Made by a program: the position numbers and the translations under genes
NCBI GenBank assembly: GCA_013388755.1
Contig: JACAEQ010000092.1
Location: 1 to 49,030, forward strand
DNA: 49,030 bases
Source of the DNA: Chloroflexota bacterium
Lineage (GTDB): Bacteria > Chloroflexota > Chloroflexia > Chloroflexales > Roseiflexaceae
Direction: 5' to 3'
The notes under the pieces: generated by a model
What the model saw: only the letters and a program-made list of their open reading frames with translations
Told to the model about the DNA's origin: nothing
The model's database searches: none
Shown here: positions 18,068-24,621 of the stretch, piece by piece
Layout: the number at the start of each line of letters is the position of its first letter
Position numbering within the stretch: position 1 is the stretch's first letter

Positions 18068-18745
18068 CTATGCCTTGACCAGACCTAATTCAAGCGCGCG
18101 CACCGCTGCCTGCGTCCGGTCAGATACGCCGAGTTTGGCGATGATATGCTCGACATGAACCTTAACCGTTCCTGCGCTGATCACAAGCTCCCGCGCGATC
18201 TCGCGGTTGGTCTTCCCCTGCATCAATAAGCGCAGCACATCACGTTCGCGCGCTGTCAGCGACTCGACCGGCGGCGCATGCTCTTCAGCGCCGGCATTCG
18301 CCAGCCGCCGTAATGTATGCAATACCAGGTCGGCATTCAGAAAGGCTTCGCCGCGCAATACCTGGCGCACCGCGCCAACAATCTCGCGCCGGCTTGCGTC
18401 TTTCAGAAGATATCCGGCAACACCCGCGCGCAACGCTTCCATGAGAAGATCCGGCTTCGATTGCACGGTAATCACGATAATGCTGATATCCGGCCGCAAC
18501 GCCTTGATCCGGCGCGTCGCCTCAATCCCGTCAATCACCGGCATCTGCAGATCCATCATCACCAGGTCCACCGGCTGGCACGCAACGAAATCGAGCGCTG
18601 CAGCCCCATCACCGGCCTCGCCAATCAGCTCAATACCCGGCTCGCGCATGAGCACTGCAGCCAGCCCGGCGCGCGCCAGTTCATGGTCGTCAACAATGAG
18701 TACACGCGCCGGCATCGGCGCAGCCCGCACAGGCTGGCATGTCAT
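18068..18745 (-). CDS. NarL/FixJ-family response regulator
   Basis: A 225-residue DNA-binding response regulator. The receiver domain has the acidic pair Asp19-Asp20 in VLIVDDHELARAGL, phosphoacceptor Asp65 in MMDLQMPVIDG, and Lys115 in GYLLKDASRREI. The C-terminal LuxR-type helix-turn-helix (about 160-225) reads LTARERDVLRLLMQGKTNREI and then SAGTVKVHVEHIIAKLGVSDRTQA. The ATG at 18745 has AAGG 9 bases upstream; an internal ATG at 18715 lacks a Shine-Dalgarno. It overlaps the end of the kinase gene by about 56 bases, so the two are co-expressed partners. Target genes are unknown; the glycan operon and protease operon lie on either side. Confidence 0.92.
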   Translation of the reverse strand: MTCQPVRAAPMPARVLIVDDHELARAGLAAVLMREPGIELIGEAGDGAAALDFVACQPVDLVMMDLQMPVIDGIEATRRIKALRPDISIIVITVQSKPDLLMEALRAGVAGYLLKDASRREIVGAVRQVLRGEAFLNADLVLHTLRRLANAGAEEHAPPVESLTARERDVLRLLMQGKTNREIARELVISAGTVKVHVEHIIAKLGVSDRTQAAVRALELGLVKA

Positions 18746-19556
18746 GGTGTTTGACCTTGCTCTGCTGCCACGTGATCGGTATAGTGATCCTGATGCATGT
18801 CCCTGCTCCCGGTTGACTCTGGATCGTCATTGTTCCTTCCAGCAGCGCGACCCGCTCGCGCATGCCGGCAATACCGGCACATCCAGCGCGAATCGCCGCG
18901 CCATCGAATCCGCAACCTTCGTCGGCAATCTCGAGCCACATCGTTGCGTCATCGCGCGCCATGGTCACCTGGACGCGGCACCGCCCGGCATGTTTGCGTA
19001 TGTTGTGCAATGCCTCCTGCACCAGACGAAAAAGCGCCAGTTCAACGTCGGCGGGTAACGGGCCGAGATCGACGAACTTCGCCGTTATGTCCCAACCGTC
19101 GTTATGTAAGGCCGTAACCTCAGGCTGGATGGCTTCGACCAGCGTTCGCCCCTCGAGCGCCTCAGGCGGCGAACCGGCCATGACCCGGCGAACTTCTACC
19201 GAGGCGCGCCGTGTGAGATCCATGGCTCGCTCAAGCGCCACACGCGACTGGAGGCTGCGGGGACGATAGACACCCGTGAGCGCCTGGAGTTGCAGGTGCG
19301 CGGCGCTCGTGAGTTGCGCCAGGCCATCGTGCAACTCGCGGGCAATCCGGTGGCGCTCCGCAGTGCGCGCTTCGTACAGCTCACTGCGCAACAGTCGGAC
19401 TTCGGCCTCGCGCTCGGCGAGTAACGTCAGCAACATGTCAAGTTCGGCCTGCAACCAGCTGGCCGAGGCATCACCTGTATGCGGATGTGCCCCGCCTGCC
19501 GACCACGCCAGCCCGGTTTCTCTCTTGTCTGCAAAGGATCTGTTGCTGTAGGTCAT
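18690..19556 (-). CDS. Soluble sensor histidine kinase, HisKA_3 (NarL-partner) type
   Basis: About 288 residues from the ATG at 19556. No membrane segment or recognisable sensor domain is present. A coiled-coil (about 35-65) leads into the H-box ERHRIARELHDGLAQ with the phosphoacceptor His76. The HATPase domain shows ALFRLVQEALHNIRKHA (N-box), LEIADEGCGFDG (G1) and GIAGMRERVALLEGTMTIQS (G2). A Cys-rich tail (MPACAGCADAGACTHC) ends the protein and is unusual for the family; it might bind metal or sense redox, or may only reflect the overlap with the next gene. It would phosphorylate the regulator encoded directly downstream. Confidence 0.88.
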   Translation of the reverse strand: MTYSNRSFADKRETGLAWSAGGAHPHTGDASASWLQAELDMLLTLLAEREAEVRLLRSELYEARTAERHRIARELHDGLAQLTSAAHLQLQALTGVYRPRSLQSRVALERAMDLTRRASVEVRRVMAGSPPEALEGRTLVEAIQPEVTALHNDGWDITAKFVDLGPLPADVELALFRLVQEALHNIRKHAGRCRVQVTMARDDATMWLEIADEGCGFDGAAIRAGCAGIAGMRERVALLEGTMTIQSQPGAGTCIRITIPITWQQSKVKHHDMPACAGCADAGACTHC

Positions 19557-19916
19557 AGACAATGTTCTGCTTGAATGCAACGACCTGCCTGACAGCCCAG
19601 ATCATAGTCGAAGGCGCCTGATCGTATGTTTGCAATACTTTGTCCAATTGTTGTCGAAAACACGTCATGTATAACAATACATAGTAGATAGAGTATCTTA
19701 CTATGCCATACCGCAGTAATGTCATCAAATTGTAAGAAACAGGATAATCCCGTGGAAGCGATACTCTTCCATCTTTGTGGATGGAAGCACCACGCTGCTC
19801 CACCTGCCCTGAGTGCAGCTGAAGGAGGTCAGGGCGACACCCGGAAACGCGCCACTGCATGAGCCATGTTCTTGTGCGGCGGCACGGCTCACGACTCGCA
19901 CGAGCAGAGCAGGCGA
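19557..19916. other. AT-rich intergenic region before the kinase gene
   Basis: 360 bases, with a markedly AT-rich stretch at about 19620-19760, unlike the surrounding GC-rich genes. It probably contains the promoter of the kinase/regulator operon, but no single -35/-10 pair stands out. A 7-bp inverted repeat (TTCCATC / GATGGAA, 19767-19786, 6-base loop) may end the protease operon transcript or be a binding site. Confidence 0.55.
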
Positions 19917-20438
19917 TTACTCGCCAGTTTCGTTCAGCAAGGTGGAGAGGAAAGTAATCAACGGCTGCAGCGTGTCGGGGATCGCGCCGGTGAAAACGGT
20001 GACGGCATATCGTCGCCGTCCGGGGCGCGCAACAATCTCGTAGGCATACCCATCCGGGCTCTGGCGGCCTGTTTCGCCGTGCAGCCGGCGCACCCCGCTC
20101 TGGTGGAGCAGCATCAGAAGCGTTGCCATGGCGTCATCGCCGAGCTGCCGCACCTCGTCGCTGCGCACCGGCCACCGGTCAACCACGCCGCGCGCGACTC
20201 GCACCCGGCCATCACGCAGCACCACCACAGCCACCGACGTGAAGCGCAGGCCGCCGCTACGTTGCATGCCAACCAGGCCGCCACGCGGCAGACGCGGCAT
20301 GCCTGCACGCAGCTCCCGGTGACCGAGGCTGCGCCCGAAGTGTGTGTCGCGCGGGCCGGCGCCGAGCGAACCAAGCACGATGTCGTCCTGTGGCTCCGCA
20401 CCTGCAGCAGGCTGATCGTCTGAGGTATCGTTCATCAC
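19917..20438 (-). CDS. Emfourin-like putative inhibitor of M4 protease
   Basis: A 173-residue protein without signal peptide or membrane helix. After a low-complexity leader (1-55), residues 56-170 form a small alpha/beta domain: GMQRSGGLRFTSVAVVVL near its start and DGYAYEIVARPGRRRYAVTV followed by DTLQPLITFLSTLL at its end. This outline (RSGG opening, D-G/F-x-Y strand, terminal LxPLIxxL helix) resembles emfourin, a cytoplasmic inhibitor encoded next to protealysin-type M4 proteases. It is the last gene of the operon that begins with an M4 protease, which supports the idea. The match is by pattern only. Confidence 0.5.
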   Translation of the reverse strand: MMNDTSDDQPAAGAEPQDDIVLGSLGAGPRDTHFGRSLGHRELRAGMPRLPRGGLVGMQRSGGLRFTSVAVVVLRDGRVRVARGVVDRWPVRSDEVRQLGDDAMATLLMLLHQSGVRRLHGETGRQSPDGYAYEIVARPGRRRYAVTVFTGAIPDTLQPLITFLSTLLNETGE

Positions 20439-20457
20439 TCGCGTATCGCAGCTATAC

Positions 20458-21063
20458 TCAACCGAACCGTACCGTCGCCAGCATCAGTTCGAACCGCCGT
20501 GCGGCACGCTCGAACTCCTGTTCGGGTGCCGCCAGAGACAGGAAGTAGCTCCGCTCGGGCATGACCACGATATACTCACGGGCAACCACCACCACTGGTA
20601 ATGACGCGCGGCGTGGCGTATCAATTGGCTGCACCACATAGGCATATTCAACACGCGCGCCTTTCACTCCCGCAATCGTCACTTCGCTGCTGTTCAAGAA
20701 ATGGTAGCCGGTCAATTCGGCGTGGAGTTGCACGCGCCGGTCAACCAGTTCCTGCAAGGTCGGCGGGTCCTGCGGGTCCAGATCGCGGCTTTCCACCGTG
20801 AACGTGGTTTTGAATGCCGAGCCGGTCTGCGGGTCCTCAACGTTCAGGATGACATCCTGCAGCGACTCGACATCAACCCACGTGGCGGGCAGCGCAATAC
20901 TGAACGGAACATCAGCCGCCTGAAACGCTCGCGTACGCCCGGTTACCTGCACGAACAGCAGGAAACCAAGCGCCAGCGCCACCAGCACCACCAGCGCAAC
21001 GCCAATGTCTTTCGGCAACAGCCGGAAGCGATAGATCGTCTCCCCTTCCGGCATCCGCATCAT
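20458..21063 (-). CDS. Membrane-anchored PsbP-like protein of unknown function
   Basis: About 201 residues. The ATG at 21063 has GAGG 6-8 bases upstream and follows the PrsW-like stop by 29 bases; the longer frame to 21285 would run through that gene. One membrane helix (about 18-38, VALVVLVALALGFLLFVQV) anchors an extracytoplasmic alpha/beta domain starting VPFSIALPATWVDV and ending FLSLAAPEQEFERAARRFELMLATV. This pattern is like PsbP/DUF1795-type domains, which have varied, mostly non-enzymatic roles. It lies between a membrane protease and an emfourin-like protein in the protease operon. Confidence 0.65.
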   Translation of the reverse strand: MMRMPEGETIYRFRLLPKDIGVALVVLVALALGFLLFVQVTGRTRAFQAADVPFSIALPATWVDVESLQDVILNVEDPQTGSAFKTTFTVESRDLDPQDPPTLQELVDRRVQLHAELTGYHFLNSSEVTIAGVKGARVEYAYVVQPIDTPRRASLPVVVVAREYIVVMPERSYFLSLAAPEQEFERAARRFELMLATVRFG

Positions 21064-21092
21064 CTCACGCCTCACTTCCGCACGTCCCACCG

Positions 21093-22007
21093 TCAACGTT
21101 GCACGTTCAACGCCCGCCGCATCAATGCCAGCAATACGACAAAGCACCCGAGCGCAACCGTAAGACCAAGCCCCAGCGACCGCCAGGGATCGACGGTCAG
21201 GCCGCTGGCGCTCACCTCGCTGATCAGCCAGCTGAACAGGCCATTCGCCGCCGCAGCAAGGGCGACGCCAAGCGGAACCCACCACAGCGGGCGATGGGTG
21301 AACCGCGCCTCGGCAAGAAAATAGCCCATCAGGCCGCCAAACGACGCCTGCGCCAGCGCCGTCGTCACCGTGCGTATCACGCCCGGCGCCAGCGCCACCC
21401 CCTGATTATCGAATACATAATGCACATTCTGCAGGGTCGCCAGTCCGAGGCCGGCCACGGTGCCGTATACCATGCCGTCCATCCGTTCGTCAAACTCCGG
21501 CGTGGCATACACGACGGCGCGCACGGCCGCATACGCAATCCCCTGCCAGGTGAACCCGACAATCAGAACCGATGCCAGCAATGAGGTGAGTGTGTCGGCG
21601 GCGGCCCACAGCGGCGTCTGAAACCACTGGTAGATCACCCGCATCCCGAGCACTTCGCCCAGCAGCAGGGCAACAATGAACACGGCGGCGATACGGGTCT
21701 TCGGCTCAGGTTCCAGCCGGTCCTGGCGATAGAAGAAGCCGAGCCACAGCGCAGACGGTGCCAGCGCGAGGAAGGCGCCGGCCAGCAGTAGCGGCGCACC
21801 TTCCAGCGGGCCGAGGAATCCGGCGAGCCAGGCGAGCAGGGAAGCGAAGGCGGCCATGCCCGCAATCTGGACCACACCTGCGCGCCAGAAGCCAGGATGC
21901 GGCTTATTCACCACTGCAAAATGGCGATCACAATAGACGCGCCCACCCAGTACATGGTACGGCGACCCGGCCGGCGCGTCACAGATGCAGCAACGTGGTT
22001 CTGACAT
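21093..22007 (-). CDS. PrsW-family intramembrane protease with N-terminal Cys/His motif
   Basis: About 304 residues from the ATG at 22007, 4 bases after the M4 protease stop. Residues 5-30 hold a Cys-x2-Cys...Cys-x2-His pattern (CCICDAP ... YCDRHF) that looks like a small zinc-binding module. About eight hydrophobic helices follow. PrsW-family signature residues lie in FDERMDGMVYGTVAGLGLATLQNVHYVF and in the later helix ALAQASFGGLMGYFLAEA. PrsW cleaves anti-sigma factors in Bacillus; related proteins occur widely with unknown targets. Joint expression with a secreted protease suggests a role in processing or signalling at the membrane. Confidence 0.8.
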   Translation of the reverse strand: MSEPRCCICDAPAGSPYHVLGGRVYCDRHFAVVNKPHPGFWRAGVVQIAGMAAFASLLAWLAGFLGPLEGAPLLLAGAFLALAPSALWLGFFYRQDRLEPEPKTRIAAVFIVALLLGEVLGMRVIYQWFQTPLWAAADTLTSLLASVLIVGFTWQGIAYAAVRAVVYATPEFDERMDGMVYGTVAGLGLATLQNVHYVFDNQGVALAPGVIRTVTTALAQASFGGLMGYFLAEARFTHRPLWWVPLGVALAAAANGLFSWLISEVSASGLTVDPWRSLGLGLTVALGCFVVLLALMRRALNVQR

Positions 22008-22011
22008 AGAC

Positions 22012-24621
22012 TCAGCGGCTTCTCCGCAGATCGGCGTCGGCGCGGAACGGATTCTCGGCGTTGCGCGGCACATTCAACGCATTATCGGCGACGATGGGCC
22101 GGTAGCCGCGCGCGATGACGATCACGCTGTACACCTGGCCGCGTGGAACGGCCACCTCCGTCTGGTAGACGCCGCGTGTATCGCTCACGCCAATCGTCAA
22201 CACCTCACGGCTCGTCAGGTTATCATCAGCGGCGGCCTGTGTCGCCGTCACCCCCGATTTCAGAATGAATAACTGCGCGCCGCTCACGCCACGCCCGGTA
22301 TCGGCATCCGCCAGCACCCCCTGCACAAAGACAGTATCGCCGGAGGCTGCGGGAGCCTGTGGCGCAGCGCCGGTTGTACAGGCCAGCAGCGAGACATCAT
22401 CAACCCACAGACTGCTGACATTGCCGGGCGGATTGCTCGACAGGAACGTGAGCCGCACGCGCTTGCCGGCCAGTTCCGTCACCTCGAACTGCGCCTGGCG
22501 CCAGGCGTCATCGCCCTGCGAGGAGGCGAGCTCCTCGACCGCGCCAAGGATGTCGCCGCTGGTATTGGCGAAGAGTACGACGAAGCTGGCATCATCGGCG
22601 AATGCCCCGAGCACGCCGCGCCGTTCTTCGTGCAGCAGCCTGTAATAACTCAGCCGCACCGATGTCGCATTGTCCGGAATGCGCACATCCTGGTAGATGT
22701 ACTGTACGGCTTCGGTGTCAATACCGCCGAGCCAGGCGCTGCGCGCGCCGGTGTACGGCAACTCCGGGTCAATGATCGCCGTCTCGCCCAGCGTGACCTC
22801 GACCCACCCCTGGCCCGACTCAAATCCGCCATCAACCACCAGTTCAGTACAACCAGCCGGCGTCTGTTGCGCCGGTGCCTCGCCGGGGCCGGACGGCAAC
22901 GCCGGGCCAGACTCCTGTGGCGCCGGGCCGACATCCGTGCCGGCGGACGTGATACCGACCTGGGCAAACGCATCGCGTACGGCTGCCGCTTCGGCGCCAC
23001 CGTAGAGATCCTGCGCCGCGCGAATCGTTGCCCGCGCCGCGTCGGCGAAATCGCTGTCGGGCGTCAGGTATTGCACCATCGTGCGGTAATAGATCCGTTC
23101 CATCTTTTCCAGCCCGAGGGCCTGCGCCACCAGAAACGCGGCACGGTTTGGAATACCACTGTTGACATGCACACCGCCATTATCCGATCGGCGCGTCAGC
23201 GGCAACTTCGCATAGTCGCGCATGTGCCCCGGCTGGCCCACGCCGTCGAGCGGCCGGCGCGGATTGTACCGCCCACCCAGCGTCGGGTCCTGCAAATCAC
23301 GCAGGTACGGCACCGGGAAGGGCGGCGACTTCACAATCTGCTCACCCATCGTCCAGTTACCGCGGTCAATCAGCGCACCGAAGACATCGGCGTATGACTC
23401 GTTCAGCGCCCCCGACTGGCCCTCATAAATCAGTTGCGACGTTTGATCAATGACGCCATGGGTCAGTTCGTGGCCGACGACGTCGAGGCCATACACCAGC
23501 GGGCGGAACAGGCTGCCGCCGTCGCCATAGATCATCTGCTGCGCCTCACTCACCCAGGCGGCATTCTCCGCATCGGCCGGATCGCTGCCATAATTGACCG
23601 TTGATACGATCGGCATGCCGCGACCGTCAATGCTATCGCGCTGGTGGGTATTGAAGTAGTAATCATACACAACACCGGCGGCGTCGTGGGCCGCCTGTGC
23701 GATGGCGTTGCGGCTGCTGCGTTCACCTTCTTCAATCACCAGCTGGCCGGGGATGCGCGTGGTATTGCGCGCACTATAGGTGCGTCGCACCCTGGCGTGA
23801 CCGATGCTATCAAACGCATGCACGACCGCCGGCCGGCGGGCATTGATGAAGTAATACCACTGGCCAGGCGGCGCATGGGTCAGGATCACGACGCGCCAGG
23901 CCAGGGTCGCTTTTCCACGCGCGTCAACATGCACCACGAGGCGGGTGCGATCCGGCAGGGGTTCCGTCACGACGCGCGCCTGTTCCTCCGGTTCAAGCTG
24001 CACCTCGCGGAGATCGCGCAGGGCCACGGCGACCGCGCGCCCGGCGGTGAGCACCGGTTCTGTAGGCACGCCGGCGATCGCCGCAAGCTGCCCATTGACA
24101 GCGACGATCCGTTCCGCCTCATCAAGATGAACCACGAGTTGCCGGCCGGCGACCGGGATGCCGTGGTACACCTGATCGAAGCGCACGTGGGAGAAGCCGC
24201 GCTCCGCATCGGGTTCGACCCGCAGCAGGCGCAGATCGTCGGCCACGGCGCGCAGCCCGAAGAGCGCGCGATTCTCGTCAAGGAAGCCACGCGCGATTGC
24301 GACGGGGTTGCCGCGCTCGGCGGCGCCCGGCGTGTAGGGCAGGCGCTGCGCCGCGTCACTCATGGTGAGGTACTCGGGCAGACCGCTGCGCGCATCCCAG
24401 TACGCCTCGATCGAGCCGGCAGCGCGCGCTTGCAGCGCTTCGAAAGCCTGGCGCGGCGTCGGTTCGGCAGAGTGCAGCAGCCTGCCGGCGGCGCTTGCAC
24501 CCTGTACCACCGACACGCGCCACTCAGGCGCGCCGGCAGGCGCCGGCAGGCTGGATGCGAGCAGGATCGCCGCAAGCAGCAGGATCGGAACCAGGCGATA
24601 GCGTTCCAGCATTCGCGGCAT
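22012..24621 (-). CDS. Secreted M4 (thermolysin-family) metalloprotease with C-terminal beta domains
   Basis: An 869-residue exported zinc protease. A signal peptide (1-30) precedes an FTP/PepSY propeptide (about 50-260). The catalytic domain has His384-Glu385-x2-His388 (HELTH), the third ligand Glu408 in GALNESYADVFGAL and catalytic His485 in DNGGVHVNSGI. After a Pro/Gly linker (about 585-620), a jelly-roll-like module begins CTELVVDGGFESGQGW, and a second beta domain starting near GDTVFVQGVLADADTGRGV resembles carboxypeptidase-regulatory/Ig-like folds, probably for substrate or surface binding. A MITE-like element ends only 46 bases upstream of the start, so the promoter may be altered or supplied by it. 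It heads the operon with the PrsW-like and emfourin-like genes. Confidence 0.92.
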   Translation of the reverse strand: MPRMLERYRLVPILLLAAILLASSLPAPAGAPEWRVSVVQGASAAGRLLHSAEPTPRQAFEALQARAAGSIEAYWDARSGLPEYLTMSDAAQRLPYTPGAAERGNPVAIARGFLDENRALFGLRAVADDLRLLRVEPDAERGFSHVRFDQVYHGIPVAGRQLVVHLDEAERIVAVNGQLAAIAGVPTEPVLTAGRAVAVALRDLREVQLEPEEQARVVTEPLPDRTRLVVHVDARGKATLAWRVVILTHAPPGQWYYFINARRPAVVHAFDSIGHARVRRTYSARNTTRIPGQLVIEEGERSSRNAIAQAAHDAAGVVYDYYFNTHQRDSIDGRGMPIVSTVNYGSDPADAENAAWVSEAQQMIYGDGGSLFRPLVYGLDVVGHELTHGVIDQTSQLIYEGQSGALNESYADVFGALIDRGNWTMGEQIVKSPPFPVPYLRDLQDPTLGGRYNPRRPLDGVGQPGHMRDYAKLPLTRRSDNGGVHVNSGIPNRAAFLVAQALGLEKMERIYYRTMVQYLTPDSDFADAARATIRAAQDLYGGAEAAAVRDAFAQVGITSAGTDVGPAPQESGPALPSGPGEAPAQQTPAGCTELVVDGGFESGQGWVEVTLGETAIIDPELPYTGARSAWLGGIDTEAVQYIYQDVRIPDNATSVRLSYYRLLHEERRGVLGAFADDASFVVLFANTSGDILGAVEELASSQGDDAWRQAQFEVTELAGKRVRLTFLSSNPPGNVSSLWVDDVSLLACTTGAAPQAPAASGDTVFVQGVLADADTGRGVSGAQLFILKSGVTATQAAADDNLTSREVLTIGVSDTRGVYQTEVAVPRGQVYSVIVIARGYRPIVADNALNVPRNAENPFRADADLRRSR

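Follow-up and report, generated by a model that had tools for sequence, protein, structure and literature searches.

What do a PrsW-like membrane protein, a PsbP-like protein and a putative emfourin contribute to an operon that encodes an exported M4 protease? This question is raised by a 49,030-nucleotide stretch (positions 1 to 49,030) of contig JACAEQ010000092.1, assembly GCA_013388755.1 (Roseiflexaceae, Chloroflexota), hereafter the window, whose full length defines the gene positions below. An initial annotation had read the four genes as a complete make-restrain-process-release unit for a secreted protease. We find that "make" stands and that "restrain" probably does, whereas "process" and "release" are unsupported because the PrsW-like protein, although it matches the profile of the PrsW family, has lost the catalytic residues of an active protease. 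In addition, M4 proteases are not the only partners of the PrsW-like/PsbP-like pair, which also accompanies trypsin-like proteases and secreted proteins that are apparently not proteases.

A conserved operon encoding an exported M4 protease

All four genes lie on the minus strand, in the order M4 protease, PrsW-like, PsbP-like, emfourin-like, separated by 4, 29, and 19 nucleotides. The features are as follows (ORF, open reading frame; TM, transmembrane; aa, amino acids).

22012 to 24621, minus strand: secreted M4 (thermolysin-type) metalloprotease, 869 aa, with a signal peptide, an FTP propeptide (residues 128-179), M4 catalytic domains (residues 279-557), a middle region and a C-terminal tail (Pfam, motifs, hydrophobic N-terminus)
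22015 to 22350, minus strand: CarboxypepD_reg-like C-terminal tail of the M4 protease (phmmer domain matches, alignment, Pfam CarboxypepD_reg)
21093 to 22007, minus strand (ORF opens at 22073): PrsW-like polytopic membrane protein with an N-terminal Cys-rich motif (Pfam PrsW-protease, alignment with intact paralogues)
about 20458 to 21063, minus strand (ORF opens at 21285): PsbP/DcrB-like protein with one N-terminal TM helix and an extracytoplasmic domain (Pfam, TM prediction)
19917 to 20438, minus strand (GTG start; in-frame ATG at 20435): emfourin-family protein, 173 aa, without signal peptide (Pfam, hhalign, AlphaFold, invariant residues)
20291 to 19926, minus strand: conserved core of the emfourin-family protein, residues about 50-171

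The M4 operon and the membrane-anchored PsbP-like protein of the initial annotation both hold: the genes lie where it had placed them, the M4 domains are recognized by Pfam, the gene order is conserved in about 40 loci, and the PsbP-like protein has its TM helix and belongs to a family with weak Pfam PsbP and DcrB matches. Relatives of the 173-aa protein were found in 28 of 158 genomes of the class, most of which repeat the order M4, PrsW-like, PsbP-like, emfourin-like, and the first three proteins are 50-70% identical, in the same order, in more than 20 genomes of the class. The stop codon of the PsbP-like gene and the start codon of the emfourin-like gene overlap by 4 nucleotides in 28 of 34 relatives. 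The recurrence of this gene order in relatives is more than chance.

Scanning genomes with the PrsW-like alignment yielded 79 named loci, nearly all from Chloroflexota. M4-type cassettes account for 40 of them, four of which were assigned from the rest of the cassette, the contig being cut or the M4 gene located elsewhere. Several loci are short contigs of metagenome-assembled genomes, L147, L182, L183, and L199 are probably mis-binned judging by name, and the PrsW-like tree contains long branches (L189, L199).

The Pfam matches of the window M4 protease are all far above cut-off (FTP, 1.5e-17; Peptidase_M4, 7.1e-26; Peptidase_M4_C, 5.4e-41), and the zinc and catalytic motifs of the family (HELTH, NESYADV, DNGGVHVN) are intact, as they are across all orthologues. 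A hydrophobic signal sequence at the N-terminus indicates that the enzyme is a predicted Sec-exported protein. We also considered whether it belongs to the protealysin-like enzymes and rejected this, as it combines a signal sequence and an FTP propeptide with no PLN propeptide (PF16485) found by Pfam, the latter being detected in the L210 control.

The PrsW-like protein has lost its catalytic residues

The window PrsW-like protein matches Pfam PrsW-protease (PF13367) with an E-value of 1.6e-14 and 54.4 bits (cut-off 23.5), and scores 83 bits with the NCBIfam PrsW equivalog, under its cut-off of 225. True PrsW carries EExxK in TM3, His in TM5, and HxxxD in TM6 (PMC4602095). At the aligned positions, we observe WQ for the EE pair, QN for EN, Q for the TM5 His, and AAAAN for HALHN. 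These changes extend to the whole M4-type clade: the EE pair is absent from every member (L122 and L134 retain the Lys and a single Glu), neither the Glu of EN nor the HALHN motif survives, and L192 alone retains the TM5 His. Among the PrsW paralogues used as controls, eight have EESLKG or EETLKG, EN, GH or SH, and HALHN, and seven of these eight come from cassette-bearing genomes; the paralogue in the genome of the window itself has EEAFKG, EY, GH, and HALNN, so that all nine controls keep both EE and K. Because the catalytic residues are lost in the M4-type clade yet kept in paralogues of the same genomes, we conclude that the M4-type PrsW-like protein is a putative conserved pseudoprotease. 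Retention is partial in the non-M4 clade, with QEFLK, a few EEFLK, and some TM5 His, and there too EN has lost its Glu and HALHN is gone.

An N-terminal CCxC...CxxH motif resembling a zinc ribbon is encoded at 21900-22007; it is conserved in the M4-type clade and in many other members, and is absent from the intact PrsW paralogues.

The PrsW-like/PsbP-like pair accompanies secreted proteins with a shared tail

Among 26 members of the PsbP-like family, 13 match Pfam PsbP (best 1.6e-6) and eight match DcrB; the window protein matches DcrB alone (0.0021, under cut-off), and a PDB search gave one weak match to PsbP. The two membrane proteins very probably act as one complex, because in nine cases, i.e., eight named loci and genome G406, they are fused in a single ORF:

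Fused PrsW-PsbP ORFs: L165:6974-8374, L179:7001-8530, L184, L194, L195, L196, L197, L198, and L265:6607-8130 (G406)

In the non-M4 loci, the product of the gene that follows the PsbP-like gene is either a trypsin-like protease or a protein without recognized protease domain, the latter in Ardenticatenia and some Anaerolineae. The only part that these cargos have in common with the M4 protease is the last 110 residues or so: matches to M4 residues of about 750-866 occur in trypsin-like and other cargos (phmmer domain matches, alignment), and Pfam CarboxypepD_reg matches 20 of 28 tails. Among 400 genomes of the phylum, the tail is present in all 22 with a strong PrsW-like match (E < 1e-60). Four further genomes have a tail match without a strong PrsW-like match, two of these tails adjoining a weaker PrsW-like gene; the weak tail matches in G225 and G335 have no cassette nearby. 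Genome G034 (ZM16-3) has a tailed M4 protease that is unlinked to its cassette, and in G406 (locus L265, G406:C20) two cassettes lie in tandem, with one tail per cassette, one cargo being trypsin-like and the other a 279-aa protein without protease motif. The idea that the tail marks many cargos in each genome was rejected, as the genome of the window holds a single convincing copy.

The recurrence of the pair with secreted proteins that share a tail suggests that a dedicated system handles tailed cargo. In the accessible literature, we found no report of the pair with M4, trypsin-like or non-protease tailed cargo, no paper joining PrsW with the term pseudoprotease, and no description of this cassette in work on PrsW in Chloroflexi.

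The emfourin-family protein

The initial annotation had likened the last gene product, which lacks a signal peptide, to emfourin, and family-level comparisons bear this out. Emfourin (PF20242) is the only Pfam match of the window protein (E-value 1e-4, 23.1 bits, under the 27-bit cut-off), and 28 of 33 orthologues match it (best 8.9e-10). With a reference profile that combined a fragment of 6zyg, a solved emfourin ("Protealysin-associated protein"), with further emfourins from the class, the hhalign probability was 98.9 and the E-value 2.7e-17 over residues 50-171. G62, G63, F66, and D129 are invariant in the cassette proteins; the two glycines, which belong to the first hairpin, and the Asp, which precedes the near-invariant Y133, have counterparts, as does this Tyr, in 6zyg and in the class emfourins. 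One emfourin Asp reportedly binds the zinc of the enzyme and may correspond to D129. Neither the window protein nor its family profile retrieved anything relevant in PDB sequence searches; 6zyg was matched only via a canonical emfourin of the class.

Structure prediction had been put forward as a check, a fold unrelated to emfourin counting against the assignment. In the AlphaFold model, confidence is high over residues of about 50-170 (core pLDDT mostly above 90), and the model is not taken as such an unrelated fold. Its best solved match is Mago nashi (Z 11.1), 6zyg was not among the matches listed, and weak matches to inhibitors include sermetstatin (Z 4.3) and SSTI (Z about 4). Residues 1-49 form an N-terminal extension with low confidence or disorder in the model and a conserved Leu-Gly motif (L22 in 94%, G23 in 88%), which is not seen in canonical emfourins. 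The last gene thus encodes a probable member of the emfourin-type inhibitor family, as supported by these comparisons.

Of the 36 M4-type cassettes whose downstream sequence suffices, 35 have an emfourin-like gene, against none of 35 other cassettes; because of this distribution, inhibition of the cognate M4 protease is likely, although the co-occurrence tests ignore shared ancestry. At L124:8480-9100, M4, PrsW-like, and PsbP-like genes are present and emfourin is missing; the overlapping ATG is there, followed by a frame that stops after a few codons. Other M4 genes of the class also have an adjoining emfourin gene, including a protealysin-like pair with PLN propeptide (L210), which would be separate support for a link between emfourin and M4, whereas several emfourin genes of the class lack an M4 neighbor within a few kilobases. 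Known emfourin inhibits protealysin and also thermolysin, and producer cells from which it is deleted are harmed (PMC9505478).

A lipoprotein signal (IAGC, LAAC, VTGC, and similar) stands at the start of many other emfourin-family proteins of the class, which should therefore be exported, in contrast to emfourin as described, the partner of an intracellular protease. Several of their genes adjoin very large M4 proteases (1,500-1,800 aa).

Emfourin-family genes with lipoprotein signal: L213:3071-3547; also L211, L212, L215, L217, L218, L219, L220, L221, L223, and L226

Proposed function and alternative explanations

We hypothesize that the operon would yield a thermolysin-type protease, exported via Sec, together with three accessory proteins. 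The PrsW-like protein may be a catalytically dead intramembrane-protease scaffold that, in one membrane complex with the PsbP-like protein, would recognize the C-terminal tail of the cargo at the outer face of the membrane and handle tailed cargo there by retaining, folding or presenting it. The emfourin-family protein would stay in the cytoplasm as a guard, blocking M4 protease that folds or leaks inside, and would be needed only where the cargo is an M4 protease. To this scheme as a whole we give an about even chance. It builds on the conserved operon, the emfourin homology, the residue loss in PrsW, the PrsW-PsbP fusions, the shared tail and the occurrence of emfourin in M4-type cassettes only; tail binding, the fate of the cargo and inhibition of the window M4 protease are what it would predict. 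That the dead intramembrane protease and the PsbP-like protein form a dedicated receptor for the cargo tail, with interchangeable cargo and an emfourin added only for M4, is a reading we hold more tentatively.

Several points weigh against the scheme. In the PrsW-like tree, the M4 type is essentially a single clade, and the co-occurrence of emfourin and M4 within cassettes therefore counts as roughly one evolutionary event, and the L124 cassette has an M4 gene without emfourin. Sec substrates are normally unfolded in the cytoplasm, where an inhibitor may seem redundant. CarboxypepD_reg-like domains occur commonly, and their role could be no more than adhesion or spacing. Finally, tail binding, inhibition and cargo location are putative.

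The explanation closest to the initial annotation, an active PrsW-like protease that processes and releases the M4 protease while emfourin restrains it, draws on the Pfam match above cut-off, on the conserved operon, on the QEFLK or EEFLK of some non-M4 members, and on the proposal that PrsW exports and processes fused toxins (PMC3482391). We consider it very improbable, given that the M4-type clade has lost the motifs that the paralogues keep, apart from the TM5 His of L192. M4 enzymes, moreover, mature through autoprocessing. Pseudoproteases are often regulators, and the pair always occurs with a secreted, tailed, often proteolytic protein, which would fit a role in sensing the protease or in protecting the envelope from it, the tail being recognized so as to restrain the enzyme; such a role is unlikely, as the cargos without recognized protease domain in Ardenticatenia and G406 would leave nothing to restrain.

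If the tail is instead an ordinary adhesion or spacer domain, the pair would act on something else and the association would reflect operon inheritance only. The wide distribution of such domains and the tails of G225 and G335 without cassette agree with this view, which is doubtful but keeps a modest chance; the same C-terminal tail is nevertheless kept in three different kinds of cargo and on the unlinked M4 protease of G034, and G406 has one tail per PrsW-like gene. The emfourin-family protein, for its part, might have lost inhibition and be a chaperone or regulator for the M4 or PsbP-like protein. Its cognate enzyme is exported, unlike protealysin, its low-confidence extension carries a conserved Leu-Gly motif not seen in canonical emfourins, its start codon is coupled to the PsbP-like gene rather than to the M4 gene, and its best fold match is not an inhibitor. 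Nevertheless, neither the GG nor the Asp varies in either group, emfourins also adjoin M4 genes of other kinds, and thermolysin inhibition by emfourin is known (PMC9505478), making this rather unlikely.

Relation to known systems and genomic surroundings

The protealysin-emfourin (pln-m4in) operon of Serratia proteamaculans (PMC9505478; PDB 6zyg) likewise joins an M4 gene and an emfourin-family gene, with the GG and Asp of emfourin conserved in both systems. It differs in that the window M4 protease has a signal peptide and FTP propeptide instead of the PLN propeptide, the window emfourin has its N-terminal extension, and two membrane-protein genes separate the M4 and emfourin genes; the canonical protealysin-type pair occurs separately in the class (L210). 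PrsW of B. subtilis, the site-1 protease of the SigW/RsiW pathway (PMC4602095), belongs to the same Pfam membrane fold family as the PrsW-like protein and shares aligned motifs, among them the D..EPEP and DG..YG regions, whereas the cassette protein has lost the catalytic residues (in part outside the M4-type clade), and has an added Cys-rich N-terminus, a PsbP-like partner and no adjoining anti-sigma factor. The export proposal for polymorphic toxins (PMC3482391) also links a PrsW-family membrane protein to secreted cargo, but there PrsW is N-terminally fused and thought to cut the toxin, whereas the cassette protein is separate, degenerate and linked to a C-terminal tail. With PsbP/DcrB/LpqN-type proteins, the cassette protein shares weak PsbP/DcrB Pfam matches and a TM anchor with one extracytoplasmic domain; it is either encoded alongside the PrsW-like protein or fused to it, and has no link to photosystem II.

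Downstream of the operon, on the same strand, a histidine kinase and a LuxR-type response regulator are encoded at 18068-19580. This two-component system was rejected as an operon member, as it is not conserved beside the operon in relatives. A promoter and terminator scan did not find a minus-strand promoter, its results being little above chance.

The operon thus places an emfourin-family gene with an exported thermolysin-type protease, instead of the intracellular protealysin. The cassettes also define what appears to be a conserved group of PrsW-family pseudoproteases, for which animal iRhoms are the obvious comparison, and whose partner, the PsbP-like protein, and cargo mark, the C-terminal tail, can be read from genomes, so that a role for bacterial dead intramembrane proteases becomes directly testable.

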